This document shows, piece by piece, positions 11,833 through 60,261 of a stretch of DNA of 64,000 nt. The position numbers and the translations under genes are program-made. How positions within the stretch are numbered: position 1 is the first letter of the stretch; each line of letters begins with the position of its first letter. The notes under the pieces were generated by a model. The model had not been told where the DNA came from. It worked only from the letters and a program-made list of their open reading frames with translations, and made no database searches. This DNA comes from Biscogniauxia marginata (taxonomy: Eukaryota > Ascomycota > Sordariomycetes > Xylariales > Xylariaceae), in NCBI GenBank assembly GCA_022695795.1, contig MU404064.1, positions 124,001 to 188,000 on the forward strand, written 5' to 3'.

Positions 11833-13349
11833 GATTACTTAAATGCAGGATACCAACAATCAATGTATACGTGCTCCTATGCAGGAAAGTACCCATAGGA
11901 TAATATGAGGACTAGAAAAGGGCGAACAGGGATTAGAACAGGGGCGCTCTCAATTTATAATGATACCCTCAACTAAATACGTGGCTAATCCACAAACGAC
12001 ATTTGAAGTCCCTCTATTCATATGATTGAGTCATCGAATCATGTATAATACAATTGCTTCTCATATACGTTAATAGGTCCCTTACTGACGACGGTGTTCG
12101 AGCAACTATTTTGGCAGGTTATGATGGTATCCATCGAGAGAAATAAATAAAGGAGCAGCCATAATCAAGCATCATATTTGTACTATATTTACTAATTAGG
12201 CTCTGGCGCTGGTGGATGGAGAGGTCTGCACCTAGGTAAAAACTTCACAATTGTCGAGCTTAGCTAGTTACAATTTTGATTTTGCAAGTGGTCTAAATAA
12301 TATCAGATCTTGTGTAGTAATCACAATCTGATTTCACATTTAAAGAACCTCAAGTAAGCTGAAACATGGCCTCCTATTCCATCTCGTGTGAATAGCCAGA
12401 GCTATAGAAGCAAATATCAGCATAGAAACACAAATACCGAGACACCCTAAGAATAATTCACGAGAGCCGAGACTCTAGAGTAACTGTCCATCCCTGTATA
12501 TCTCGCCTACGAATAAAAGCTTGTGATGTAAGACTACATCTTAATTCCTAGCACTGGCACAGCCACTCAGTCGAAGCTGAAGATTGAACAGCCGACCCCC
12601 CTCAGCCTTCTTGGCGACCTAGGCAATGCCTATGAGATAATTCTTGCTTTGCAACCTCTTCAAACCGGGGGTAGTTTGTAAGATTATGAAATCAGTCGTA
12701 TAGCTGCATAATAACCTCAACATGAGCGAGAAACCGTAGTGTATATTATCTTATTATCAGAGCTTAAACCACGCTTTTATTTATCATAATACTAGAAAGA
12801 GAGACATTTATCAAGTCATAGAATGAACTTAGTATGCGAATTCGATTATATTCATGTGTCAGGAGGATTTTGAACATAGTCAACTTTGAAGTAACATTGC
12901 CGCGTAAGCAAGCACTTATCTGTGTGCATGAGCTCCAAAGGCCAAGAAGACTGAGAACCTGCCCGTTTCAATCTCAACGACACTAATGCATCATTACCAG
13001 ATAGGATATATCACTTGTGGTAGTCAAATCTTGGCTACATACTGAGAATTACGAATACTTGCCTTGACGCTTTCAATATAAAGAGGTGTAAGGTAGCATT
13101 ACGGCCACTACGAGCAAGATTAATTATATAGAAAAAAATCGGAATACCTCTTTAATGTAGGCATTAACTACTTGAAGAACTGCTATACATTAGAGGCCCT
13201 AGTCATTCTTTTTTTTTTAAATCGACACTCTTATACTGGTTTTAGATTCTACATCCAAGATTGAATGACCAGAAATCACATCCTTCTGTTCACTCCTCGC
13301 CCATCTTATACAAGTGGCAAGTCTCTGGCTCGCCGCTCGTATATCCGCC
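11833..13349. other. intergenic, AT-rich
   Basis: About 1.5 kb without a supportable gene. Stops are frequent in all frames. The right end is the upstream region of the small membrane-protein gene. A poly-T run lies at about 13210-13218. No repeats or RNA genes recognised. Confidence 0.55.
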
Positions 13350-14036
13350 ATGCGATTTCAATCATTATTTATAGCTCTTGCATTATGCGCTATTTCAAAC
13401 GCTTCTTGGTTCCGTAGAGATATTGCACTGTATAGTGCCAAAACACCAAGGGCAATATTTCTAACACCGAGTTCATTAGACGCTGCTCGGGCCCTAAAAA
13501 TAACAAACAAAGACACGAGAACAACAACTTCAAAGCGCGACGATGATGACGACGATGATAGCGATGACGATGATGACAATGATGGCAATAACCAAAGGGG
13601 CCCTAACTCTGGGGCCATCGCCGGTGGTGTTATAGGCGGTCTGCTACTGCTCCTTTTACTCATACTGGGAACGTGGTACTGGTACCGAGTGGGACCGCGG
13701 CGACCAAACCGTCGTCGCTCACGTTTCCGTTTTCGTCGGACAGGATCGTCCAGAGGAAAAGACAAGGAAGACAATGATGCCGAGAGTCAATATCGATATA
13801 AATCCCACGAACCGCCACACAAAGCTCCGACCCTGCCGTCGCAACCGACCTCAGATTCAGCTTCGGCCCTAATCCTCCGGCCTGCCGGGCCACAACTACC
13901 ACCCCCGACGCCACCAGCTGCAGAGCTGGAAGCGTCGATTCACCACTCGATGTCACCGTCGCCCATTAGTGAGGATCACCACACTCCCCTGAGACCGGCA
14001 CCCGCGCTGGCTGCTCGCCCAGGTTGGTCGGTATAG
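13350..14036 (+). CDS. small type I membrane protein with Asp-rich stalk, unknown function
   Basis: Single exon, 228 aa, starting at the ATG at 13350 because that places a good signal peptide (MRFQSLFIALALCAISNASW) at the N-terminus; the frame is open further upstream but without an ATG. After a short ectodomain comes an almost pure Asp/Ser run (about residues 64-79). Then comes GPNSGAIAGGVIGG and a Leu-rich transmembrane segment ending in TWYWYR, followed by an Arg-rich stop-transfer region. The cytosolic tail is rich in Pro and Ser. This layout (signal peptide, polar stalk, GAIAGGVIGG-type helix, disordered tail) is common in fungal Wsc/Mid2-like and other plasma-membrane single-pass proteins, but no Cys-rich WSC domain is present. 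I do not recognise a family. Confidence 0.65.
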   Translation: MRFQSLFIALALCAISNASWFRRDIALYSAKTPRAIFLTPSSLDAARALKITNKDTRTTTSKRDDDDDDDSDDDDDNDGNNQRGPNSGAIAGGVIGGLLLLLLLILGTWYWYRVGPRRPNRRRSRFRFRRTGSSRGKDKEDNDAESQYRYKSHEPPHKAPTLPSQPTSDSASALILRPAGPQLPPPTPPAAELEASIHHSMSPSPISEDHHTPLRPAPALAARPGWSV

Positions 14037-14540
14037 TAGCACTCCTCGCTGAGCGAGTGACTACCTAACTTAGGCGGAGGACGGAATTAGCGAAGTAGAC
14101 AGGAGAATAAATTTGACTGGGCTCTTAGGATTGGATCATTTATCGCTGCCGAGGTATTTCGTTTTATCAGCTATTGTTCATATTTCTAGGCTACGATATG
14201 GTCAAATCAATCTGCTTTCTGTGCTGATAGTATAGCTACGAGAGCTCGCATAAACACTTTGTTCATAATGGGAGACCACGATGAAATCAAACTGTTGATT
14301 ACCTTTATGGCGTTTTTCGTTTTTCCCCCCCTACTTCTAGGCGGCCATGTCTTGTTAATTTGAGCGAATGGATGATTATCGACAGGAACAAAACCACGTT
14401 CCTATTAGAACACCTATCTCCGATCTCAATTTCCCTCCCGGAAACTATTGCGGTACTACTTCTAAATAACTTATTCTAAGTACTAGAATAAGTTTATAGA
14501 AACACTGGCAAGGTGGTGGTGGATGTAAATACCCCCTCTT

Positions 14541-14573
14541 CCCCCCCCCCCCCCCTTTTTTTTTTTTTTTTTT
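14541..14573. repeat. C15-T18 homopolymer tract
   Basis: Fifteen C directly followed by eighteen T. It is probably length-variable and prone to sequencing error. It lies about 0.5 kb upstream of the rvt start. Confidence 0.9.
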
Positions 14574-14927
14574 AAGTTCCTATATCTCTGGTATATTCAG
14601 TATCTTGATTTTTATTGTGATATTTCTCAGTTTGATAGCGCAAACTGGTATTGTGTTACACTAGTAGAATATGGGCAAACAAATTGCGCTTCATTGTATG
14701 TTTGTTTCGGTTTGTTTTACTTCAATTCTTTATTGGCCTAGATAGCATAATTTGTATGAATGTACGCGGCTTCTGGCCAATGAGGATTGTATTCGTGGAG
14801 GGCGGACGTAGATCTGCCGTTATGTGTAGCCTACCAGCGAAGTTCGCGCACCATTTGCACGATGGCGAGTCAGTAGAGGCTGTGCCACAAGCTAGGCAAC
14901 ACAGCAGATGCCTGCCTTGATTCTCCA

Positions 14928-14938
14928 TATATAAAAAG
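14928..14938 (+). promoter_or_regulatory. TATA-like box upstream of rvt
   Basis: TATATAAAAAG, 129-139 nt before the rvt ATG, followed by a CT-rich stretch and an A-rich leader. The spacing fits a fungal core promoter with a leader of about 70-100 nt. Assignment is by position and consensus only. Confidence 0.45.
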
Positions 14939-15066
14939 AGAACAATTCGCAATGGTTTTTTTTTTTCGGTCTCAGACCTTTTCTTTTCCCTCCCACTTCA
15001 ACCAACAGCACAAAATCATATAATTGTTCTTAAGCTGCATACACACATCCCTCTATACTAGCCACC

Positions 15067-18036
15067 ATGGCATCGCCCAGTGGTAGTGTCTTCTCTGAGA
15101 CACTGCAAGAGATCACCAACACAAAGCTTGAAGAGCTCTCTAAGCGACGGTCAGATTTCGAAACTGCTAAGACAAAGATCGTTGCTAGTTTAGAACATGA
15201 AAAACAACCCACCCAGCGACTTGTGCTACTGAGCCAAGGCGTAAAGGACTGCTATGCAATGAAGGTCACCAAATCAGGGGAAATTATTCCTGGGCAGTCA
15301 AAGAACACCAACCTGGAGCTCGAGCTGAAGAATCTCGACAAGTTCTTGGCTCAGTCCAAGTATGACCCTTCCGTATCGCCTAGGCTAATGCGCACTTGGG
15401 AAGAGTCGCTGCTCCATCACCTCAACACGCAGTCCCTCAAGTTCCAATACGCCTCGCTGTACGCCCAGCTTGTTACAGAATGGCTGTCAACCGAGAAGTC
15501 CAAGTCCAACGAAGAAGGGGACGTGGCGATGACGGAAGGATTCGAAGACATTGCAAAAGAATTGAAGCAGGACTCGAGGCGTGAATGGGAACGAGTCGTA
15601 TTTGAGCCTGCTAAGATTGACGAGGACGGCCTCGGTGCATATCTGAATCACTTGTTCGGTCTGAGAAACCCACAGAAGGCGGAAGCGGCAAAGGCTCTAC
15701 AACAGCTTCGAGAAAAGGTAACCAACTTTGAAATCGCTATGACCGCGCCCAAACAATTCAATCCGACAACCCTGTCGTGGGTTGCCGAAGGCCTCCTCTC
15801 TTCCGATCTCCTCACCGACGAGAAGCGTGAGGTACTGAGGGACTTCAAAAACAACCCCGTCATCTTGGCTGAGATAGCTGATGTCCTCAATATGAGGATC
15901 TCGGCTTTAGAGAATTGGTCTTGGGGCTCCAGCGTGTCCCTAGAACAGCGACGAAAGATCAGCGGCGTATACAACATCCTTATGCACGAAGATCTGCTTC
16001 AGGCGATATTCTTGCACTACATCGGTGTCAAGTGGTCAGTGTTCTTGAAAGACGTATTGCGGCAGTTCCGCAAGTTTAACGGGGCATGGAAATCTTCCTC
16101 TAAACAAATTCCCAAGGCCGACATAAAGCGTCGTGGCTATTACCTAGGATCCGAGAGTCGGAGCAGATCTGTACAATCTACCCGAGACAAAATCTACCGT
16201 ACTCACTATTTCATGGCCAATTTGATGGATTCTGATACTCAGCAACAAGAGTCCCTCGAGGGCGAAGAGGCAGCCGAATACCAGACTGCGCCAATACCAT
16301 CCAGTGCTAATCTTGGTGATTATCACATGCAGCTCCAGCTTCTGGAAGCGCAAAATAAGAAGCGCCTGCGTATGGCAAATATGCCGCAGCAACAACCAAG
16401 GGCTGCTATGGTTCCAATGGCGCAGATGTCACGGAAGAGCGTGCATACACAGGCTCGGTCCACTTATAATAAACATTCAGGTGAAGATACAGATGACGAG
16501 GAAGACTCTGCTTCAGCAATCAAACGCCCAATGGAGGACAAGCAGCGATTGATTCGCCTATTATCGACAGAGATAGCCATCAACACAAGGCTGTATGGAG
16601 AGGTTACCGCCTTCCACTCTATGTTCGAGAGCTGGAACTCCCTTCTCCCACATGAAACCATCCTAGCAGTCCTGTCATTTTTTGGGATCTCTCATACTTG
16701 GATCAATTTCTTCACCAAGTTCCTTAAGGCACCGCTCAAGTTCCTCGAGGACGATCCGTTGGCGCCTCCACGTACTCGACGGCGTGGCACGCCCGCGTCT
16801 CATGCTCTCAGCGAAACCTTTGGGGAACTCATCCTCTTCTGCCTGGACTTTGCCGTCAATCAATCGACCGATGGCAACACGCTCTTCCGTATGTACGATG
16901 ACTTCTGGTTTTGGTCACGGGACCATTCTGCAGCTGTGACTGCATGGAAGTCGGTGACGGATTTTGTCAATGCTACGGGCACGTACATTAGCCCATCTAA
17001 GACCGGCACCGTCCGTATCTCAAGTGACCCGTCAGTATCACTGGAAATTGATCGATCCCTCCCAGCAGGGGACATCCGCTGGGGCTTTCTGAAGCTCTCA
17101 AGAGAAACAGGAAGGTTCGAAATCGACGAGACCATGGTGGATAAGCATGTTGTCGACCTACGCAAGCAGCTCCAAGATAAGCGTAAGAGCATCATATCCT
17201 TCATACAGGCATGGAATACATATGCTGGAACATTCTTCACTTCGAACTTTGGAAAGCCGGCTAACTGCTTTGGCCGAGGCCATGTGGACCAAATGCTCGC
17301 AACACATCAGCGCATCCAGCATCAGATCTTCTCTCCATCCTCTTCAGCGTCCTTAGTCGGCGAAGGAAAAACTTTGACAAACATAACTAATGTCGCCGAC
17401 TACCTGAAGAATCTCATGTTGGAACGATTCGGCGTGTCCGACATCCCCGATGCCTATCTGTTCTTTCCGATGGAACTAGGCGGCCTCGATCTCAAAAGCC
17501 CTTTCATTTCCATAATGCAAGTCCGCAGCACCGTGCTGGACGATCCTACAAACGTCCTGGACAAATTCTTCGAGGCGGAGCGGGAGATCTACAACGCCAG
17601 AAAAGCCGCCTTCGACAAGGGATTAGTTGAGCGTCAAGGCGTAGGTGACCCCAGATGGGAACCGGAGAGCGAACGGGACAGAGAGAATTTCATGAGCTTC
17701 GAGGAATTCACGCGCTACCGCGAAGACCTGAATTACGACTTCGAGAATGACCTCGTGCACGTCTACAAGAAGCTGCTCGAGCTCCCCAAGGAAGAGGGCA
17801 TTTTGGACGGTAGCGCGAGGGTGATGAATGGGATTGAGGCCCTTGGCCAACAAGGGAATCTGAAAGGAATTCACGGGAACTGGAGCTTTATGGAGCCATA
17901 CTGGAGATGGGTTGCCCAGCTCTACGGTCCCGAAGCCATGGATCGCTTTGGAGGCTTGAACATCGTCGAGCCTGGGCTACTGCCCATGGGAATGGTGAGC
18001 ATTTTCAGAGACAAGAGGGTTAAATGGCAGGGATAG
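15067..18036 (+). CDS. rvt: RVT: domesticated reverse transcriptase-related cellular protein
   Basis: One uninterrupted exon, 989 aa. The N-terminal part is alpha-helical and charged, with a low-complexity Gln/Glu-rich section (about 395-490). The polymerase-like core follows: segment TAFHSMFESWN...LLPHETI (514-531) at the place of motif A; RRGTPASHALSETFGE (572-587), matching motif B; LFRMYDDFWFW with D611 and D612, matching motif C; GTYISPSKTG (to K645/T646), matching motif D; GDIRWGFL (668-675), matching motif E. This order, with the [LM]xDD[FL]WFW form of motif C, is that of the rvt genes described by Gladyshev and Arkhipova as single-copy, non-mobile RT-related genes in fungi and other taxa. 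The Neurospora protein polymerises nucleotides in vitro. There is no integrase, RNase H, LTR or poly-A signature nearby, so it is not a retrotransposon copy. A motif A aspartate is not evident (see findings). Cellular role unknown. Confidence 0.85.
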   Translation: MASPSGSVFSETLQEITNTKLEELSKRRSDFETAKTKIVASLEHEKQPTQRLVLLSQGVKDCYAMKVTKSGEIIPGQSKNTNLELELKNLDKFLAQSKYDPSVSPRLMRTWEESLLHHLNTQSLKFQYASLYAQLVTEWLSTEKSKSNEEGDVAMTEGFEDIAKELKQDSRREWERVVFEPAKIDEDGLGAYLNHLFGLRNPQKAEAAKALQQLREKVTNFEIAMTAPKQFNPTTLSWVAEGLLSSDLLTDEKREVLRDFKNNPVILAEIADVLNMRISALENWSWGSSVSLEQRRKISGVYNILMHEDLLQAIFLHYIGVKWSVFLKDVLRQFRKFNGAWKSSSKQIPKADIKRRGYYLGSESRSRSVQSTRDKIYRTHYFMANLMDSDTQQQESLEGEEAAEYQTAPIPSSANLGDYHMQLQLLEAQNKKRLRMANMPQQQPRAAMVPMAQMSRKSVHTQARSTYNKHSGEDTDDEEDSASAIKRPMEDKQRLIRLLSTEIAINTRLYGEVTAFHSMFESWNSLLPHETILAVLSFFGISHTWINFFTKFLKAPLKFLEDDPLAPPRTRRRGTPASHALSETFGELILFCLDFAVNQSTDGNTLFRMYDDFWFWSRDHSAAVTAWKSVTDFVNATGTYISPSKTGTVRISSDPSVSLEIDRSLPAGDIRWGFLKLSRETGRFEIDETMVDKHVVDLRKQLQDKRKSIISFIQAWNTYAGTFFTSNFGKPANCFGRGHVDQMLATHQRIQHQIFSPSSSASLVGEGKTLTNITNVADYLKNLMLERFGVSDIPDAYLFFPMELGGLDLKSPFISIMQVRSTVLDDPTNVLDKFFEAEREIYNARKAAFDKGLVERQGVGDPRWEPESERDRENFMSFEEFTRYREDLNYDFENDLVHVYKKLLELPKEEGILDGSARVMNGIEALGQQGNLKGIHGNWSFMEPYWRWVAQLYGPEAMDRFGGLNIVEPGLLPMGMVSIFRDKRVKWQG

Positions 18037-19670
18037 AGTCGATAGGATGGCGGCATGTATACTTGAGTTCGGTATAACATCAGTTACTACAGGGGAATTT
18101 GTTATTGTCATGAAAGTTAATGCACCGATCACTTCAACCTAGTTCGGCTAGGTTATGGAAAGGAGGCTCGCCTGTCTTCTATACATTGTATACCTAGGTA
18201 ATCCCGTAATAATTGTCAAAAATGGATTGCCTGTATAGTGGGTTCCCAATAGGATGAGAACCTGCGCATTCATCCGTTGACTGATATGTTATTGTAATTA
18301 AGTACCAGAGACAGTAAGTATCTCTTAGCTAAATTGTGTGCTGATAAGTGGTGCGTGATTCAAAATTTATACAAGAGACAATTATTACCTATTGATATCT
18401 AACTGGCAGATCACGGCCCGGGAGATAGACTATCTTGAGTTCGGCGACGCGAATAGGTAGAGAACTCGATGGGAATAAGCGGCTTCTACGAAGAACGATA
18501 TAATGGCTAACCTTTTACAGAGGCGAGGAATTCACATCAAAACGTGAAGTAATATAGATTACGTACCTATATATATATATATAATTATTCTTTCGAGTCA
18601 ACGACTATTTCGCATTGAAATGTAGAGCACCTCGAAGACTGATGGTCATGGTTCGGTGTGGAAGTTATGAAACAATCCTGGCGAGTGTAAATTAAACCTG
18701 CCCGTGAATACCTACCTACCTGTTCGTACTTAAAGCCGTAGTTAAGCACGTCTTACCAAAGCAATTCGTACATGGTTCTGACATTTCCTAGATATGTAAC
18801 ATTAGCTGAAGGTGGTCAAGTCGAAGATAAGCTAATCCGGAGGACTTTCAAGCTCATAGAAATGTACCTAAATAGGCAACTCCTTACCCTTGTCTTCTCA
18901 CAGGATGTCTAAAGCCTAAACGTCTATATTTTGACGTCCCCCGGGGACATTATAGGGCTATAACCATCATGCAACTCCACATTGTGGGACCAGATGACCC
19001 GTAGGTGTCGTCGTACTGGTTGACGAGATGACCTGGTTTTTCCACAACAGAGCCAAGACTTTTTATTACCTATCGCGAAAACTATACCTCGAGACGACAT
19101 CCTCCTTTTTCTTGAAAAAATGACTTATAACCCGATTATCGGATCAAGAAGACTCTGCTATTTTATAGTACTAATCGGCGACTAAAACCCTCTAATGTTT
19201 ATGTATCAAGTAATAACCTTCCTTCTATGGCCGTTACAAACGCTAAGTCGCCGATTTCTTGGCAGCTCAGCGATTCTATTTGCGCAGGGGATTGGTGGTT
19301 CATATGACTTTGCGGCTTTGATAATGTCTCACTGGGGGTATGAAGCTGACTATGCGTGAAGCCATCACAAGATTCGATCACCCAAGCTCATTCATCCAAA
19401 TCAGCAGATTAGTTAGACAAGTTTGCAGCGCATTTACAGATTACGGGGTTTTGGCATAATGCGTGACAGTTCTATATTCTATTTTGTATATTCTCAAGGT
19501 TGTCATCGCGTAATTATATAATGTGTGAACCATCTCTTGTATATTGCTGGATTGTGCTATGACATCTAGACGCATAGCTCGATATTACTATCTGATGTTT
19601 TCGGGTTCTTATACCATAGTCAAAAGATTAACCGTACACATCATTAATACTAGTACCAGTTGGAATAAAC
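18037..19670. other. intergenic, 1.6 kb
   Basis: Contains the rvt 3' flank, a short (TA)n run at about 18568-18583, some TACCTA motifs (about 18710-18720) and the upstream region of the metallopeptidase gene. No coding region or RNA gene is recognised. Confidence 0.55.
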
Positions 19671-21534
19671 ATGGCTCACCGTTGTATTGAAGGACAGTGT
19701 GCTGTTTCGCCTCACCCTGATCTCCTCGCACGCCAGCACGCCGCTCTTCGCAATGTTCAAGGGACCGCCGAAGAAGCGGCCGTAAGGGAACACATCAATT
19801 CTCTCATCCTCGGTGACCGAACCGGTCGAATTCCCGGTCTCAACGACGGCACTATTTTCCCCAAGTCTCACTTCGATGAGAATGCGTCCATCAGCTCCAT
19901 GAGCCGTGCTGCTCTCGAGCGCGCACCGCTTAGGGGGGCAGTCAAGTGAGCCACACACCCCCCCGGACAAGTTAGTATACACTATTGCAATTTGCTAACC
20001 ATTGCCCCCGTGCTTGTTGCCAGCGTGGTTCTGGTCCTCATGGATTTCCAGGACGTTAAGATGGCCTCCGGCGCTAAGGAGCGGTTCGAGGAGCTGTTCT
20101 TCTCGGAGGGGAAGGTCTCCACCGGCTCCGTAACCGAGTACTACCGGGAGGTCTCGAACGGGAAGATCTCGCTGGCGGGAGAGGTCCTCGGCCCGTTCAC
20201 GCTCAGCCACGACAAGGCGTACTACGCGAACGGCAACGCCGGACGCTCCTCTCCCGAGCCGAACTCGGTGACCATGGCCGAGGAGGCAGTGATCGCCGTC
20301 ACGGGGAAGGCCGACTTTAATAAGTACGACAACGACGGCAATGGAATGGTGAGCTCTTGATGGCCTTTATCTTTTGTAAACGTTTCCGTGACAAGGCGGC
20401 GGAAAGCTGACGAACAGAGGACTAGATCGATGCATTCATTGTCGTTCATGCTGGCACAGGGGCCGAACAGAGCGGCGATCTAAACGACATATGGAGCGTT
20501 AAGTGGACGCTCAATCAGCCGCGGCAGCTTAATGGTGAGCAAGACAGCTCCATGGATGGCAGATGAATTAAATCGAAGAACGGCTAACCAGATAATTTTA
20601 TGCGTAGATGTCAATGCATACGGCTTCCTGACCATTCCCGAAGATGCCAAGATTGGTGTTTGTTCACATGAGATCGGACACTTGCGTAAGTCAAAAGATC
20701 CCTTTGACTCTGCCTTCCGTCGACTCTATAGCATGTTAATAATTTGGCATTCAACCAGTCTTTGGATGGCCCGACCTGTACGACACAGACGGCAGCTCGA
20801 CTGGAGTCGGCAACTGGTGCCTCATGTCGTACGGTAGCTGGGGAGGCAACGGTGATCGGCCAGTGCACCCGTCAGCCTGTAAGTCTCTCCTCCAAAAAAT
20901 GGCAGCATCTCTCTCTCTCTCTTAAATACTGATTACTCTTATAGGGTGCAAGGCGACTCAAGGCTGGATCGACGTAGTCAACGAGACGGAGAACCACCAG
21001 GTCACCCTCGCGGACGTCAAGTCAGGCTTCAAGGCGCACCGCCTCTGGCGCGACGGCGACGCGCAGAGCACCGAGTACTTCCTGGTTGAGAACCGGGCGC
21101 GGGCGGGCTTCGACGAGTCGCTGCCGGGCGCCGGGCTCCTGGTCTGGCACATCGACGACGCCGTCGACTCCAACGCGGACGAGAACCACCCGAAGGTCGG
21201 GCTGGTGCAGGCCGACGGTCTCGACCAGCTGCGCGAGGGGGGTTATTACGGCGACGCCGGGGATCCGTTCCCGGGGACGGTTAATAATACCACGTTCAAC
21301 GGGACTTCGAACCCCAGCAGCAAGGCCTACTCGGGCGCCGACACGAACGTCTCCATCACGGGTATCCCCGCGGCGTCGGCGTCCATGGCGCTTGATGTCG
21401 CCGTGAAGGCGGCCGGGCTCCCATCTGACGACAACAAAAGCTGCTTCGATCTGCAGGCCTGGTACCAGTTGGGGAATATGCTTGTAGGGTCATGCGCTAG
21501 ACCACGACGAACGCTGGGACGCCGATTCGGCTAA
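19671..21534 (+). CDS. M6-family zinc metallopeptidase, no signal peptide
   Basis: Six exons, join(19671..19945, 20024..20348, 20426..20534, 20608..20685, 20759..20878, 20945..21534), 498 aa; five GT-AG introns of 66-78 nt, all frame-consistent. The spliced product has the zinc site HEIGHLLFGWPDLYD (H257, E258, H261, D268); the motif is split by intron 4 exactly after HEIGHL. Downstream LMSYGSWGG supplies the Met-turn-like segment. VLVLMDFQD near residue 100, and a Gly/Asp-rich DNDGNGMIDAFIVVHAGTG, match the M6 (immune inhibitor A-like) peptidase core, a family best known from Bacillus, Vibrio and Streptomyces. The N-terminus MAHRCIEGQCAVSPHPDLLA has no hydrophobic signal, so the protein may be cytosolic or exported unconventionally. 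Substrate unknown. Interrupted by fungal introns yet of a mainly bacterial family, it is a candidate for old lateral transfer. Confidence 0.85.
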
Positions 21535-24549: not shown

Positions 24550-25622
24550 TCACCACAGATATCCTCTGCAATCCTCACTCCCGCACAGGCAGCGCGTCAT
24601 GTCTTTCTGCTTCTCTGGATCAAGCGCGTCGTTCTCAGAGTCGTCAACCCCGTCAACATAGTCAAATGTGAGTTCTTCGCCCCTAGGTATATCCCTAATG
24701 GCAAACAGCGCTAGATCATGGATGTGCTTATCTGCGTGGTCGCCCACTCGAGCAAATATGCGCAAGTTCGGCTCGCAGGAGTGGTTGACAAATCGAGTCG
24801 GTCCTGACATGAACTCGCCGTCTACTTCCAACGGAGGTCCTCGTAGACGCTCGTCATACGAGTCTGGGTCTGAGAACTTGTCCAACGCGAATAGGTAGAC
24901 ATCTTTGCGTTGCGCGAAGTGAGATTTGGCGCGGCGGCGGTTAGCCTCCTGAGCTGTGATGATCTCCCCCATATACTTGTCGACAAACTGGCCTTTCTTG
25001 ATGTCTACCGTGCTTCTCACACCCCAGCCTCGATTGGCGGTCCGGAAGATCTGTAGAGGGACCTTACGACCTCTCTCCACTACCCGATTGGGGCAGTCTT
25101 GGCCGCATGCGCAGCTTTCATGGCACTCGTAGATTGGGTTTCGGGAGAGGAGGACCTTGGATCGGAGGTGGCCGGCCTTTGTACCATGCGAATGATAGGC
25201 ATAGACCCTCTTGCGGTACGGTGCGCCGCTGGTGCCATCGGCGCCGTCTTCGTCATCGGAGCTGTCGTCCTCGACATCCTGTAGACAATTACAAGTATTG
25301 TATTGACAATCCTCACCTTCGGTACATTCGCAGCCGGTCAGGAACTCCTTTCTAGTTGGTTCCACGTCCTTTGCGAGGATAGACTTATCCATGAAGCGGA
25401 AGCTGGGACGAAGCACAGCATCGTCTACCGTATTGATTATAGTGACGGGGTACTGAGAGTGGGTGGCGAAGGAACGGATTTGGCAGAAGTGGCAATCGCG
25501 CTTTTCAGCCTCATGACCCTACAAAATATCGAGTAAGATTCATTCAATTGTATGGGAGCGTATCGGCAGTAGCTCACATCTTCACTGTGGTGGAAGAAAT
25601 GCTGCCGTGTAGCTTCCTCCAT
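24550..25622 (-). CDS. dim-5: histone H3 lysine-9 methyltransferase (DIM-5/KMT1, Clr4-type)
   Basis: Two exons, complement(24550..25518, 25578..25622), 337 aa; 59-nt intron GTGAGC...TTGTAG, phase 0. Exon 1 encodes MEEATRQHFFHHSED. The N-terminal block CHFCQIRSFATHSQYP is followed by a complete pre-SET cluster of nine Cys (78, 80, 86, 91, 93, 147, 151, 153, 157). Then come the SET core NRGWGV, RFVNHSCEPN (N260, H261) and ELTFDYV (Y302), and a post-SET CLCGSEDCRGYLW with three Cys (325, 327, 332). No chromodomain is present, as in Neurospora DIM-5 and unlike yeast Clr4. All zinc ligands and catalytic residues known from DIM-5 are present, so the enzyme should be active. DIM-5 trimethylates H3K9; HP1 reads this mark and directs DNA methylation to RIP-mutated AT-rich DNA. 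Three AT-rich islands start 0.35 kb beyond its 5' end. Confidence 0.95.
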
Positions 25623-43166: not shown

Positions 43167-43172
43167 TATAAA
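43167..43172 (+). promoter_or_regulatory. TATA-like box of the NRPS-like reductase gene
   Basis: TATAAA, about 117 nt before the chosen ATG at 43289. Called by consensus and position only. Confidence 0.4.
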
Positions 43173-43288
43173 CTTCGCTAATATTCCCATTCGCTTCTTT
43201 CAAAATTGAAATTCGAGTCGTTCGTCGTTCCTTAGTGAAATCAACATCTTATGTGCCGAGACAACTTTCACACACAGAGTCATTGACC

Positions 43289-46200
43289 ATGTTTAGAGCA
43301 ACCGAAGCACTTTATCCAAATGCGATAAGACGTCAACTGTCTCGAACTAGGCCGTTTGCCACCATCGTAAGCGTTGATGGGAAATGCCAGGACCTGAGCT
43401 TTGCCGAACTGGACAATGTAACGAATAGAGCCGCTTGGTTTCTCGACGAACATCTACAACAAGATGAAAAGGTTCTCTATATGGGGCCGAGCGATATCAG
43501 GTACCTCATATGGGTTCTCGCAGCTATGAAGACGGGCAAGTGCGTAAGTATACATCCCTTTCATTGGTTTCTCACCTTACTACGAATAATAAACTGGCAT
43601 TCTTCGAGAGGGAGGCGCTGGAATCTTACAATAGATGGCCTGGGAAACGGATTCTACTAAATATAAAACTAAGCTGAAGATTTCTTATGCAACCCACCGC
43701 TGTAGTGAAATCTAAGCTAATTGAAACCACCAAAAAAAACTGTAGGTCTTGTTTCCTTCTCCGAGCAATCCCATTCCCGCCAACAAACGATTATTTGAGA
43801 CGGTGGGAGCTTCGAAGCTCATGTATGCCCCAGAGGCTGCAGACCTGTTGTCACCTCTTATCCAGGTTACACGGAATATTGTCACAGCGTTTGTTACGCC
43901 GACTTACAAGGACGTGATGAGCCAAGACCTTGCGCAGGAATACCCCTTCGAGGGAACTTTCGATGAACTCAAAGACACCAAGTTTATGGGTCTTCACACC
44001 TCGGGTACTTCAGGTCATCCAAAGCCACTTTACTGGAATCACATGGCAGCATCTACTCTTGCGTCATGTCGTGATCCATCTATACCAGTGAATAACCGGG
44101 ACGGTCCGAACTTGACAGCTGAGCTTTTCGTCGGGCATAATGTCCTCAATCCATTCCCGATGTACCATGTAAGCACTACAACCTCCCGAATCCCAATATA
44201 ATATACTTACAACTAATTAAAATTTATCCAGCTCGGTGGTATGGCTCCAACCTTAGGGTCTATCCACTACGATAATACCATGATCCTACCAGCACCTGGG
44301 ACACGACTGACGCCCGAAAATATGACTGCACTTTTGATATATGGCAAATGTACAGCTGCATTCGTTCCCCCGTCAGTCCTAGAAGCAATGTCAAATTACC
44401 CTCCCGGAGTAGAGGCCCTAGCTGGGTTACAGAAAGTGGGTTATACTGGTGGACCCCTAAATCCAACACGAGGCAAAGAGCTAGCCAAACATGTCCGACA
44501 CTTGTTTCCTATACTAGCAAGTACCGAGGGCGGGCCATCTCATCTCGTTAGCTCTGGAGACAGTTCACACTGGAACGCCTTCAAGTTTATAGACGTCGGT
44601 CAACGAATGGAAGAAGTTATGCCTGGCTTCTACGAACTGGTGTTTCCGCGAACTGAACTAGTCAACTATACGCATGCTTTTTTCCAAACATATCCCGACG
44701 AAACGGAATACCGGACGTCGGATTTATTTGTTCCTGCTGAAGGTCAAGATGGCTGGTGGATCTATAGTGGCAGAGCAGACAACTGGGTTGTCATGTCGAA
44801 TGGGTTAAAAATGGATCCGACAGATATAGAAAACACGGTAGCCTCCCACCCAGATGTCACAGGGGTGCTGGTTGCAGGATCTCAGCGTTTACGGCTGTGC
44901 ATGATCCTCGAAATGAAGTCACCCCCGACCAGCCACGCAGAACGTGAGAAGATATTAGAAGGGTTATGGTTATCCATTAACGAGGCAAATAAGGCGTCAC
45001 CAAAATTCGGAAGGGTGCCTAGGGAGTTGATCATGTTTGCAACAAAGGAGAAGCCCTTTTTACGGGCTAGCAAGGGAACAATACAACGAAGGTTGACCAT
45101 CATGGCGTACGACCGAGAGATTAATGAGATGTACGCCCAAGCTCAGGAAGGACTTCTTACTCATGACCTGCCCCCTCTCAAATCCACAGAGTTGCAAGAT
45201 TTAATACCCTTCTTAACAAATCTCTATGCGCACACATTGGACAAAGAGGATATTGAAATAAGCACCGACGACGACCTATTTGCTCGCGGCCTGGATTCGT
45301 TGGCCAGTGTCATACTATCGGCACGCTTGAAAGCGGCTTTAAGGAATTACGGGGTCGAGAGTAAAAGGCTCGATCTCATCAACAATAAGTTGTTGTACTC
45401 AGCAACAACAATCAGACGCATGGCAGAAGCACTAGCAGCGTTGGTGGCTGAAAATGGCAGGTTTGATGAGATCGTGTCGTCTACAAGCCATGAGCAGCAA
45501 GTAGAGGAGCTAGTGGCTAAGTTCGAAAGCGAGCTTCCTCGCTCCAACAAGAATAAACACGTACCAGCAGGATGTACTAAGCAAACCATTATACTGACGG
45601 GTTCAACGGGGTCACTTGGGTCGTATATTCTATCATCGCTGCTTGCGAGGAAGGATGTAAAGAAAGTCTACTGTCTCAACCGCAGTGAAAATGCAAGGGA
45701 AAAACAGGAGAATTTACTCAAGAGCCGGAGCCTACCGGACTTATCGACCCAGGATGGCCGGGTGGTATTCATACAAGCCAGGCTGTCTGAGCCAAAACTT
45801 GGACTCTCGGAGGATCAGTACAGTATACTCGCCAAAGAGACAACATCCATCATTCATAACGCGTTCCCCGTCAATTTCTTGCTGAGCGTCCTGTCGTTTG
45901 AGCCACAGGTCCAAGCTTTGGTTAACCTTGTCAAACTTGCCGCCGAAGGAGACAAAACGCCGTCAGTGTTTTTCGTGTCAAGCATTGCTGCTGCCATCCC
46001 TGTTACGGGCAACCATGAAACGATTCCGGAAGCTGTTCTTAGTTCAGAGAATGCCAAGTATCTACTCCAGCAAGGCTATGCCCAAGCAAAGCATGTATGT
46101 GAGCGCTTACTAGAAAAATACGCAGTATTGTCCGAGGGCAGGAAGGCAGCAGTTCTTCGCGTCGGTCAGATCTGCGGGCCAATCTCAGGGAATGGCGTCT

Positions 46201-46682
46201 GGAATATGTGGGAATGGACACCTTCTCTGGTCGTGAGCTCCAAGTTTCTCGGCGTTGCCCCTGACTCCCTCGGCGGCATGGAGATCAACTGGATCCCCGT
46301 AGACAAGCTGGGCCGCATAGTCACAGAACTCGTTTATACAACTTCAGCGAGCAGCAGCAAAGGCCTCACGGTGTATAACGTGGTAAATCCGACGATCACC
46401 CCCTGGGAGGAACTCCTTCCGATAGTCAAGAAGGCTGCGCCTGCTACTGTGTCGCCCAAAGAATGGATAGACCGGTTGGAGGCGAGCGATAACGGTACTC
46501 ACATGATCAACGATAACCCTGCGCTCAAACTAGTCGATTTCTATAAGCAGACAATGCTTGGTGAGATGACACCAGTCAAGGTCGAGATGGAAAACCTCTT
46601 GAGTGGCAGCGAAACGGCAAAGTGGCTAACTCCTATAAAAGAAGAGCATATGGCTCGTTGGATAAAGTCATGGAGGTTATAA
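43289..46682 (+). CDS. NRPS-like carboxylic acid reductase (adenylation-thiolation-reductase)
   Basis: Three exons, join(43289..43543, 43746..44168, 44232..46682), 1042 aa; introns 202 and 63 nt, phase 0. The start is the first ATG in frame (MFRATEALYPNAIRR); the frame stays open 54 nt upstream, so a further 5' exon is possible. Adenylation domain: GLHTSGTSGHPKP (167-179), YRTSDLF, SGRADNWVVMSNGLKMDP (about 405-422) and the catalytic Lys in LRASKGTIQRR (K507). Thiolation domain: DDLFARGLDSLAS with phosphopantetheine Ser582. Reductase domain: TGSTGSLGSYIL (682-693, NADPH site) and YAQAK (Y842, K846). No condensation domain is present. Such enzymes activate an aryl or alkyl acid, load it on the carrier and release an aldehyde or alcohol using NADPH. 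The substrate cannot be read from sequence. No other biosynthetic gene adjoins it. Confidence 0.92.
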
Positions 46683-58386: not shown

Positions 58387-60261
58387 ATGACCAAAGCGAT
58401 ACCTCTAGCGATGCCGTCGACGACGGAGGCTGTCGACTCGGAGTTGGCGAGAGAGATCGAGGGATGGCAACACGACACGGCGGGCGCGCGTCAGGCCTGG
58501 GTGGCCGAGAGGGAGGTCGGATTCTGGGAGGCCATCAAGGCAAATAGGCGCGCCGTATTCTGGTCGGCCATGATATCAATGTCTATTGTCATGGAAGTGC
58601 GTTCTTCTACTTCTAGAACTTCTTAGTTTCTCTCTCCCCCTCTCTCTCTCCCCGTTCCCCTCCTCATAGGGTTTTTTTCTCTTCATCCACCCTCTCTCTA
58701 CTGACTAAGCTGACGAGTAAGGAGCGGTGAACGCAATAGGGTTACGACACCGCCCTGCTGCCGTCCTTCTTCGCCTACCCGACGTTCCAGCGGAAGTACG
58801 GGCAGTACTTCCCCTCGATCCGGCAGTACCAGCTCACGGGGGCGTGGCAGGCGGGCCTCTCGGGCGCCGAGGTGGTCGGGCTCATCGCCGGCGCGCTCCT
58901 CAACGGCTGGGCGTCGAGCCGCTTCGGGTACAAGCGGACGATGCTGGCGGCGCTGCTCGCCATGAACGCGACGCTCTTCGCGACCTTCTTCGCGCCCTCG
59001 GCCGGCGTGCTGCTCGCCGGCCAGCTCCTCAACGGCGTCCCCTGGGGCGTCTTCGCCACCGTGGGCCCGGCCTACGCCTCCGAGGTCTGCCCGCTCGCGC
59101 TCCGCGGCTACCTCACCGTCTACTGCAACCTGTGCTGGGCGGCGGGCCAGCTCGTCGCCAACGGCGTGCTCCAGGGCCTCGTCGGCGACCCCACCGAGTG
59201 GTCCTACCGCATCCCCTTCGGCCTGCAGTGGGTCTGGCCGCTGCCGCTGTTCGCGGTCCTGCTCTTCGCGCCCGAGTCGCCCTGGTTCCTGGTGCGGCGC
59301 GGGCGCTACGCCGAGGCGCGCCGGGCCGTCCGCCGCCTCGCCGACAAGTCGGACGGCGAGGCCCGCGCCGCGCTCGCGCAGATGCGCTACACCATGGCGC
59401 TCGAGGACGAGGTGCGGGCCGGCTCCTCGTACCTCGACTGCCTGCGCGGCGCCGACCGCCGCCGCACCGAGATCTGCTGCGTCGCGTGGTCCGGGCAGAT
59501 GCTCTCGGGCGCCATCTTCGCCTACGGCGCGACCTACTTCTTCACGCAGGCGGGGCTCTCGGTCGGCGACGCGTACAAGATCGGCGTGGGCACCAACGCG
59601 CTGTCCCTCGTCGGCACGGTGCTCTCGTGGTTCCTCATGGCGCGGCTCGGCCGCCGCGTCATCTACGTCGCGGGCGCGGCGTCCCTCGCCGCGGTCCTGC
59701 TCGTCGTCGGCGTCGTGTCGGCGACCGCGGCGCCGACCACGAACGCGGCCGCCGCTTGGGCGCAGGCCTCGCTGCTGCTCGTCTGGCACCTGGCCTACTC
59801 GCTCTCGCTCGGCCCCGTCACCTACGCCGTCGTCGCCGAGACGTCGGCCGTGCGCCTGCGCGCCCGGACGGTCGTCCTCGCACGCTGCGCCTACAACGTC
59901 ACCCTCATCGTCGCCGCCGTGCTCAACCCGTACATGATCAACCCGGCCGAGTGGAACTGGCAGGGCCGCGCCGCCTTCTTCTGGTGCGGCGGCGCGGCGC
60001 TGACCGCCGTGTGGGCGTACTTCCGGCTGCCGGAGGCTAAGGTCTGTTTTTCCTTTACATGCCTGCCTAGGTATATATGTATATCCCTTGTTCTTCCGTG
60101 ACGATAAGAAACTGACTATTAATTATTTTTTTTCGAACCAGGGGCGTTCGTATGAGGAGCTTGATATGCTGTTCCGTAGGAAAGTGCCAGCTAGGAAGTT
60201 CAGTTCGACCAAGATTAACGTCTACGAAGAAGACTCGGCTAGCAGTAGCAAACCTTCTTGA
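58387..60261 (+). CDS. alpha-glucoside (maltose) permease, MFS sugar porter
   Basis: Three exons, join(58387..58596, 58740..60041, 60142..60261), 543 aa; introns 143 and 100 nt. Start MTKAIPLAMPSTTEAVDSE; a Met seven codons later is the alternative. Sugar-porter signatures: GYDTALLPSFFAYPTFQRKYG after helix 1, ASSRFGYKRT (loop 2-3), YASEVCPLALRGYL (end of helix 4), PESPWFLVRRGR (after helix 6), and the C-terminal PEAKGRSYEELDMLF followed by VPARKF. The PESPWFL form and the VPARKF tail are those of fungal maltose/alpha-glucoside proton symporters. Twelve hydrophobic segments are apparent. Exon 2 is extremely GC-rich with almost only C or G at third positions, unlike flanking genes. Exons 1 and 3 are less biased. 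Confidence 0.9.

Follow-up and report, generated by a model that had tools for sequence, protein, structure and literature searches.

An intact RVT-family gene of Biscogniauxia marginata, from a paralogous branch in which the motif A aspartate appears to have been lost

The window analysed here is a stretch of 64,000 nucleotides from the fungus Biscogniauxia marginata (assembly GCA_022695795.1, contig MU404064.1, positions 124,001 to 188,000). Its plus strand, which carries every feature of the gene described below, contains an intron-free and stop-free frame of 989 residues at 15067..18036, stop codon included. Sequence, homologue alignment and profile identify the product as a member of the RVT family of reverse transcriptase (RT)-related proteins, with a degenerate motif A. 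In 200 mononucleotide shuffles of the frame the stop-free runs reach 233 codons at most, and the frame's start and end line up with full-length homologues in alignment A1. Motif B is retained as RGTPASHALS (residues 573-582, 16783..16812) and is followed by the YDD of motif C (610-612, 16894..16902), the KTG of motif D (645-647, 16999..17007), all three read from the sequence, and the motif E region GDIRWGFL (668-675, 17068..17091), read from sequence and alignment. An earlier note on this DNA had reported an intact, intron-less, full-length RVT gene of 989 codons with motifs B to E. The coordinates, the length and the quoted motifs are all exact, the frame ends bear out the full-length copy, and the ordered motifs in a stand-alone protein, together with the presence of loop 2a, agree with the RVT class. 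Its reading of the RT motifs is right for B, C, D and E, but motif A was left unlisted, and it has no aspartate. In the alignments, and by structural position in the models, the codon where the catalytic aspartate of motif A belongs is an ATG (16621..16623) encoding M519.

A protein search returned at least 870 homologues at E<=1e-3 among 7996 scored candidates. Among the best 120 of the 870, the closest is from Camillea tinctor (Xylariales, 70% identity) and most match over the full length; in A1 the window protein is 50 to 72% identical to 22 relatives. Judged by these alignments, the protein sequence of the gene is conserved. A second search used short pieces so that proteins of other lengths would be favoured (A3, 402 matches), and a third used D-type proteins, that is, those with the motif A aspartate, as queries (A4, 686 matches); each was sampled for its best 120. 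The comparison set comprises 343 distinct proteins, the window protein and 342 homologues, which are given P numbers below. Among the matches listed, the named members without the aspartate come from Sordariomycetes, Dothideomycetes, Leotiomycetes, Eurotiomycetes and one lichen fungus. Most of the D-type members are from Leotiomycetes or Eurotiomycetes, a few from Sordariomycetes; these class placements are ones that we assume from general knowledge. None of the matches listed in the three protein searches is named as a Neurospora protein. Two fungal-type RVTs, P0218 and P0256, are listed for the liverwort Calypogeia fissa, on contigs of identical length, and may be due to contamination or transfer. 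For Lachnellula willkommii both P0292, which is D-type, and P0195, which is E-type, are listed, which may mean that a single species can carry both branches.

The top profile match of the window protein is PADLOC RT_UG37, a bacterial RT group (E=5.4e-51, 171.5 bits, residues 12-815), to which the D-type P0223 scores higher (229.9 bits); the Pfam RVT_1 match is sub-threshold (E=0.014). Two pattern scans of bacterial genome contigs (63 stretches in A1, 12 in A4) and one of viral contigs (29 stretches in A4) gave nothing that tblastn confirmed, and a tblastn search of plasmids was empty at E<=0.01, so the link to bacteria comes from the PADLOC profile alone. The match to UG37 takes in the N-terminal region; unlike UG37, however, the window gene is fungal, as are its named nearest homologues (Xylariales, best 120 of 870 matches), and its motif A is degenerate; the likeness is one of profile only. 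Residues 1-165 (15067..15561) form a helical N-terminal region in the AlphaFold (AF2) model that solved structures hardly cover, their match rows (VIA-align) extending over residues 161-973.

The gene is not mobile. A search of the 45.3 Mb assembly found one intact RVT copy and one disrupted copy, 33% identical, on contig C3, and no direct or inverted repeats of at least 25 bp occur within 12500-20500. The C3 copy (617522-620233, loci L002-L004) is D-type and has two in-frame TGA codons in its first part. Its frame shifts between locus bases 3620 and 3622 in tblastn alignments with P0001 and P0204, and this change is not an intron because the two bases are too close together. Its repeat-induced point mutation (RIP) index is -0.65, which is not RIP-like. 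Among RVT_1 stretches of the same genome, 351 were candidates and 150 were scored, 149 of which are interrupted by one or more stops, most of them TAA or TAG. The only one without internal stops (C81:88953-89273) lies in an open frame of 298 residues and could be another host RT gene, e.g. telomerase. The RVT frame has a RIP composite index of -0.75, and eight such RT-element loci range from +0.46 to +0.86. The single intact copy, the stop-laden RT stretches, the RIP indices and the absence of flanking repeats confirm the earlier note's claims that transposon context and RIP-like damage are lacking. Dispersed copies, which that note named as a refuting result, were not seen: the only second copy found is the disrupted one on C3.

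Position 519 is never aspartate in the window protein and the best 120 of its 870 homologues. Across the 343 proteins the residue is D in 123, E in 51, Q in 11, K in 2 and small or hydrophobic in 156 (the V-class), so that 220, here called D-less, have no aspartate at this site. The alignment has no gap next to site 519, and in a profile-profile comparison of the two groups HSMFESWNSLLPH pairs with RSDFKWFGPSVPH. The AlphaFold model of the window protein has a mean pLDDT (predicted local distance difference test score) of 80.5, with blocks near site 519 at 90-97. In this model M519 is the penultimate residue of the motif A strand (DSSP, residues 512-520, 16600..16626) and the following helix begins at 523; in the model of P0223 (mean pLDDT 85.2), D425 holds the penultimate place in strand 419-426, with the next helix beginning at 429. 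According to the models, M519 and the D-type aspartate would occupy the same strand position. Both proteins have the motif C aspartates, which are D611 and D612 in the window protein. An alternative placement of motif A at E502 (LSTEI) was rejected, because the model places E502 within a helix (488-510) and because an E or D at 502 is shared by the majority of proteins in each class, D519-bearing ones included. As the motif A aspartate is absent, the window protein is not a canonical RVT polymerase.

The main tree, of 343 proteins, used 539 columns and excluded sites 519, 611 and 612; the C3 copy, being too short, is not in it. With support of 1.0 on the tree as written, it separates 219 proteins without the aspartate from the 123 D-type proteins plus P0256, the only member of the D group with A at 519, and the D/non-D character requires two parsimony steps. 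The same split (22 versus 207, support 1.0) had been obtained in an earlier tree of 229 tips and 320 columns from the RT block, with these sites unmasked. The first to diverge among the D-less proteins is a 48-member E branch (support 0.96); three further E proteins come next (0.987), and the remaining classes, Q/K and V, follow. Support for a single V-class group is low (0.17, the value printed after re-rooting). A stepwise order from D to E and then to Q/K and V depends on a root on the D side, where it is expected because other RTs have the aspartate.

The motif C aspartate pair is present in 121 of 123 D-class, 50 of 51 E-class and 12 of 13 Q/K-class proteins, and in 116 of 156 of the V-class (D versus V, Fisher p=1.7e-9, not corrected for kinship). 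As a control, changes were counted in the 133-protein branch holding the window gene at the 48 sites that change at most once in the D group. None of the 48 changes more often than site 519 (34 steps), which is changed by definition. The nine sites of motifs A, C and D, named by motif after the site listing had been seen, have a median of 9 steps versus 1 for the other 39 (Mann-Whitney p=1.8e-4); the contrast persists when 519 is removed (p=5.5e-4) and for D611, D612 and K645 alone (p=0.007). Two of the nine, 523 and 647, are not fast, and fast sites also occur outside the motifs (706, 617). Many sites are unchanged in the branch, including G574 of motif B, W616, W627 and L675, while sites 523 and 678 are fixed in both groups with a residue that differs between them. 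As far as substitutions can tell, the pattern in the branch of the window gene is that of a fold kept without catalysis.

Another difference between the groups lies in loop 2a. In the window protein this insertion spans residues ~400-486 (16264..16524) and is largely disordered, with pLDDT<50 at 409-480. Over alignment columns 395-492 its median length is 21 residues in the D-class and 89, 83 and 90 in the E, Q/K and V classes, so the loop appears to have grown from ~21 to ~90 residues in the D-less group. At a score of at least 60, stretches resembling the N-terminal tail of histone H3 are found in the loops of 61 of 220 D-less proteins and none of 123 D-class proteins; for H4 the counts are 20 of 220 and 0 of 123. 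No H3- or H4-like stretch reaches 60 outside the loop. This threshold was chosen because shuffles attained an H3 score of 45 for 14 of 340 loops; 60 is reached by 1 of 17000 loop shuffles for H3 and 0 of 17000 for H4. Tails of H2A and H2B are absent from the loops at 60, and one loop reaches 45 for H2B. The H3-like stretches have a median length of 31 residues and a median identity of 0.76, with 32/34 identical aligned residues in P0135, 28/31 in P0195 and, with an insertion, 35/37 in P0053. Near-verbatim H3 tails also occur in the loops of P0077, P0096, P0099 and others, H4 tails in those of P0066 and P0075, and three of these RVT proteins (P0193, P0195, P0203) carry the NCBI label 'histone H3'. 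Lysines of the tail are kept in 209 of 370 cases, arginines in 213 of 233 and other residues in 1227 of 1511, counts in which the cells are not independent; in the 61 relatives replacement falls much more heavily on lysine, mostly to R, M or Q. Presence of the H3 stretch takes 26 parsimony steps versus a shuffled mean of 57, so it follows kinship, yet has been gained or lost many times.

The loop of the window protein itself contains no histone tail (H3 score 28, H4 score 18). That it might be an eroded H3 tail is unsupported, as 200 shuffles reach scores up to 36. Residues 418-441 (DYHMQLQLLEAQNKKRLRMANMPQ, 16318..16389) are, however, identical at 17 of 24 positions to a peptide in a glutamine-rich open frame that the same genome carries on contig C159, a score reached by 0 of 5000 shuffles of the window loop. 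Just upstream of that frame, on the same strand, lies another with a LisH match of 20.4 bits (Pfam cut-off 21.6), and the two are probably one gene. This gene may resemble Som1/Flo8-type coactivators. A C159-type peptide is found in the loop of 12 of the 343 proteins, none of the D-class; five, including the window protein, are among P0001-P0050. In P0229 it lies outside the region taken as the loop. The string LLEQQNKKR did not occur in the literature searched. From these comparisons loop 2a appears to be a place that takes up host linear motifs.

Taken at the level of sequence, the window gene is an intact fungal RVT of a paralogous branch, spread over several classes of Pezizomycotina, in which the motif A aspartate was lost. 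The reading that we prefer, with a probability of roughly 0.6, is that it encodes a conserved RT-fold protein of this D-less branch, most likely a non-catalytic scaffold with a motif-displaying loop 2a. An ancestor would have lost the first catalytic aspartate, that of motif A, while the RT fold, motif B and the thumb were kept, and the usual two-metal polymerisation would most likely have been given up. The protein may then have taken on a non-catalytic scaffold role, by analogy with the RT-like domain of Prp8. Loop 2a could serve as a flexible arm between motifs 2 and A showing peptides common to chromatin and transcription proteins: H3 or H4 tails in many relatives, and in the window protein a probable LisH coactivator peptide. 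The features computed, namely the branch, a predicted RT fold, the absence of the aspartate, relaxation at the active site and the loop peptides, suggest an old polymerase turned into a non-copying scaffold or decoy; from them we infer that polymerase activity was lost, that the cleft binds nucleic acid or protein, and that the loop serves in recruitment or as a decoy. More tentatively, and with less than even odds, the D-less proteins might be chromatin-facing decoys or scaffolds. Their loop 2a would have gained long copies of host motifs and lost lysines as if shape were kept and modification escaped, the window member having the coactivator-like peptide at the place of its relatives' histone tail.

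Several other explanations were weighed against the non-catalytic scaffold. The catalytic acid may have moved, with E/D521 replacing D519 in a protein that is still an unusual nucleotidyl transferase. An acid is present at 521 in 142 of 156 V-class and 22 of 123 D-class proteins, the window protein keeps the YDD of motif C, motif B and the lysine of motif D, and the E-class retains both an acid at 519 and, in 50 of its 51 members, the motif C pair. This explanation is nevertheless unlikely, since in the V-class the acid at 521 is unlinked to the motif C pair (105/142 with the acid versus 11/14 without; Fisher p=1.0), 40 of 156 V-class proteins lack that pair, and the predicted motif A strand would stop at 520, before E521. 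A dead regulatory subunit that works only in a hetero-oligomer with an active D-type RVT is less likely still. The N. crassa RVT forms multimers. The RVT-related enzyme DRT9, a defence-associated reverse transcriptase (DRT), is described as a hexamer in the available part of PMC12483538, and the pair P0292 and P0195 of L. willkommii shows both types listed for one species. However, in B. marginata the D-type copy as assembled is a disrupted one and the genome search found no further relative, so that no active partner is evident there.

The view of the earlier note, that of an ordinary, active and stress-induced RVT polymerase of the N. crassa type, is correct as to family, intactness and lack of a mobile context; as a whole it is very improbable, because the motif A aspartate is absent from the window protein and from all of its best 120 of 870 homologues. 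Nor does the suggested link to amino-acid starvation find support: exact matches to TGA(C/G)TCA, which we take to be the CPC1/GCN4-type site, are absent from 12034-35207, and so from the region upstream of the gene. Least credible of all is a recently dead gene or retroelement remnant. The relaxed active-site residues of the branch would fit it, but the frame is full-length, its product is recognisably similar to all 22 relatives of A1, and 66 CAA, CAG or TGG codons, which RIP-type change would turn into stops, persist in it; there is one intact copy and there are no flanking repeats.

Among known systems the closest is RVT itself. The accessible portions of PMC3520738 describe the N. crassa protein as non-essential, as having terminal transferase activity and as strongly induced by inhibition of protein synthesis; those of PMC5718144 describe RVT as a long branch with loop 2a and as the only RT group found in both bacteria and eukaryotes. 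The window protein shares with RVT, as far as these excerpts go, the ordered RT motifs, a loop 2a between motifs 2 and 3 (A), a stand-alone gene in a filamentous fungus and a profile match to a bacterial RT group. It differs in lacking the motif A aspartate, in the relaxed active site of its branch and in a loop peptide common to another protein of its own genome; of the acids of an active RVT polymerase it has the motif C pair but not that of motif A. The antiviral DRT9 (PDB 9ioa, 9nlv, 9vma) combines a YADD active site with a non-coding RNA in the sections available of PMC12483538, whereas the window protein has no motif A acid. R2 and LINE-1 ORF2p are mobile and have an endonuclease; by Pfam the window protein has no endonuclease domain, and the gene has no dispersed copies or flanking repeats. 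The RT-like domain of Prp8 has no sequence match to the window protein, and viral RNA polymerases are as good a match. In Prp8 this domain is accompanied by endonuclease-like and RNase H-like domains, neither of which Pfam finds in the window protein.

In the literature searched, which was available in part and did not cover the primary PNAS paper of 2011, neither D-less RVTs nor histone tails within loop 2a were found described. In the parts available, two DRT papers (PMC12632851, PMC12483538) name RVT only in reference entries, a paper on supernumerary segments of Fusarium virguliforme mentions RT-like genes (PMC4920403), and two others (PMC10799480, PMC11051394) concern only Pfam RVT domains. 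If the branch has long kept the RT fold without the catalytic aspartate, part of the cellular role of RVT genes cannot be ordinary nucleotide polymerisation, and RVT would be another RT turned scaffold, beside Prp8. If true, copies of histone tails of at least 30 residues in an RT-related protein would be unusually long mimics and would tie RVT to chromatin; to our knowledge, known histone mimics are much shorter than 30 residues.

The 'clean promoter' of the earlier note is weakly supported by a TATA-like TATAAAA 5' of the frame (14930..14936) and by the start context GCCACCATGG, both read by eye. Elsewhere in the window, about 6.5 kb from the RVT gene, a SET/Pre-SET gene of the H3K9-methyltransferase type lies on the minus strand (24550-25518), a position that may be coincidence. 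An NRPS (non-ribosomal peptide synthetase)-like gene of the adenylating, carrier and reductase (NAD_binding_4) type is on the plus strand (43172-46682), its domains being found within the frame 44217-46682. A sugar transporter gene of the major facilitator superfamily (58740-60101, plus strand) surrounds a block of 1 kb with 74% GC, versus ~49% for the window, in which long open frames are present in several reading frames.
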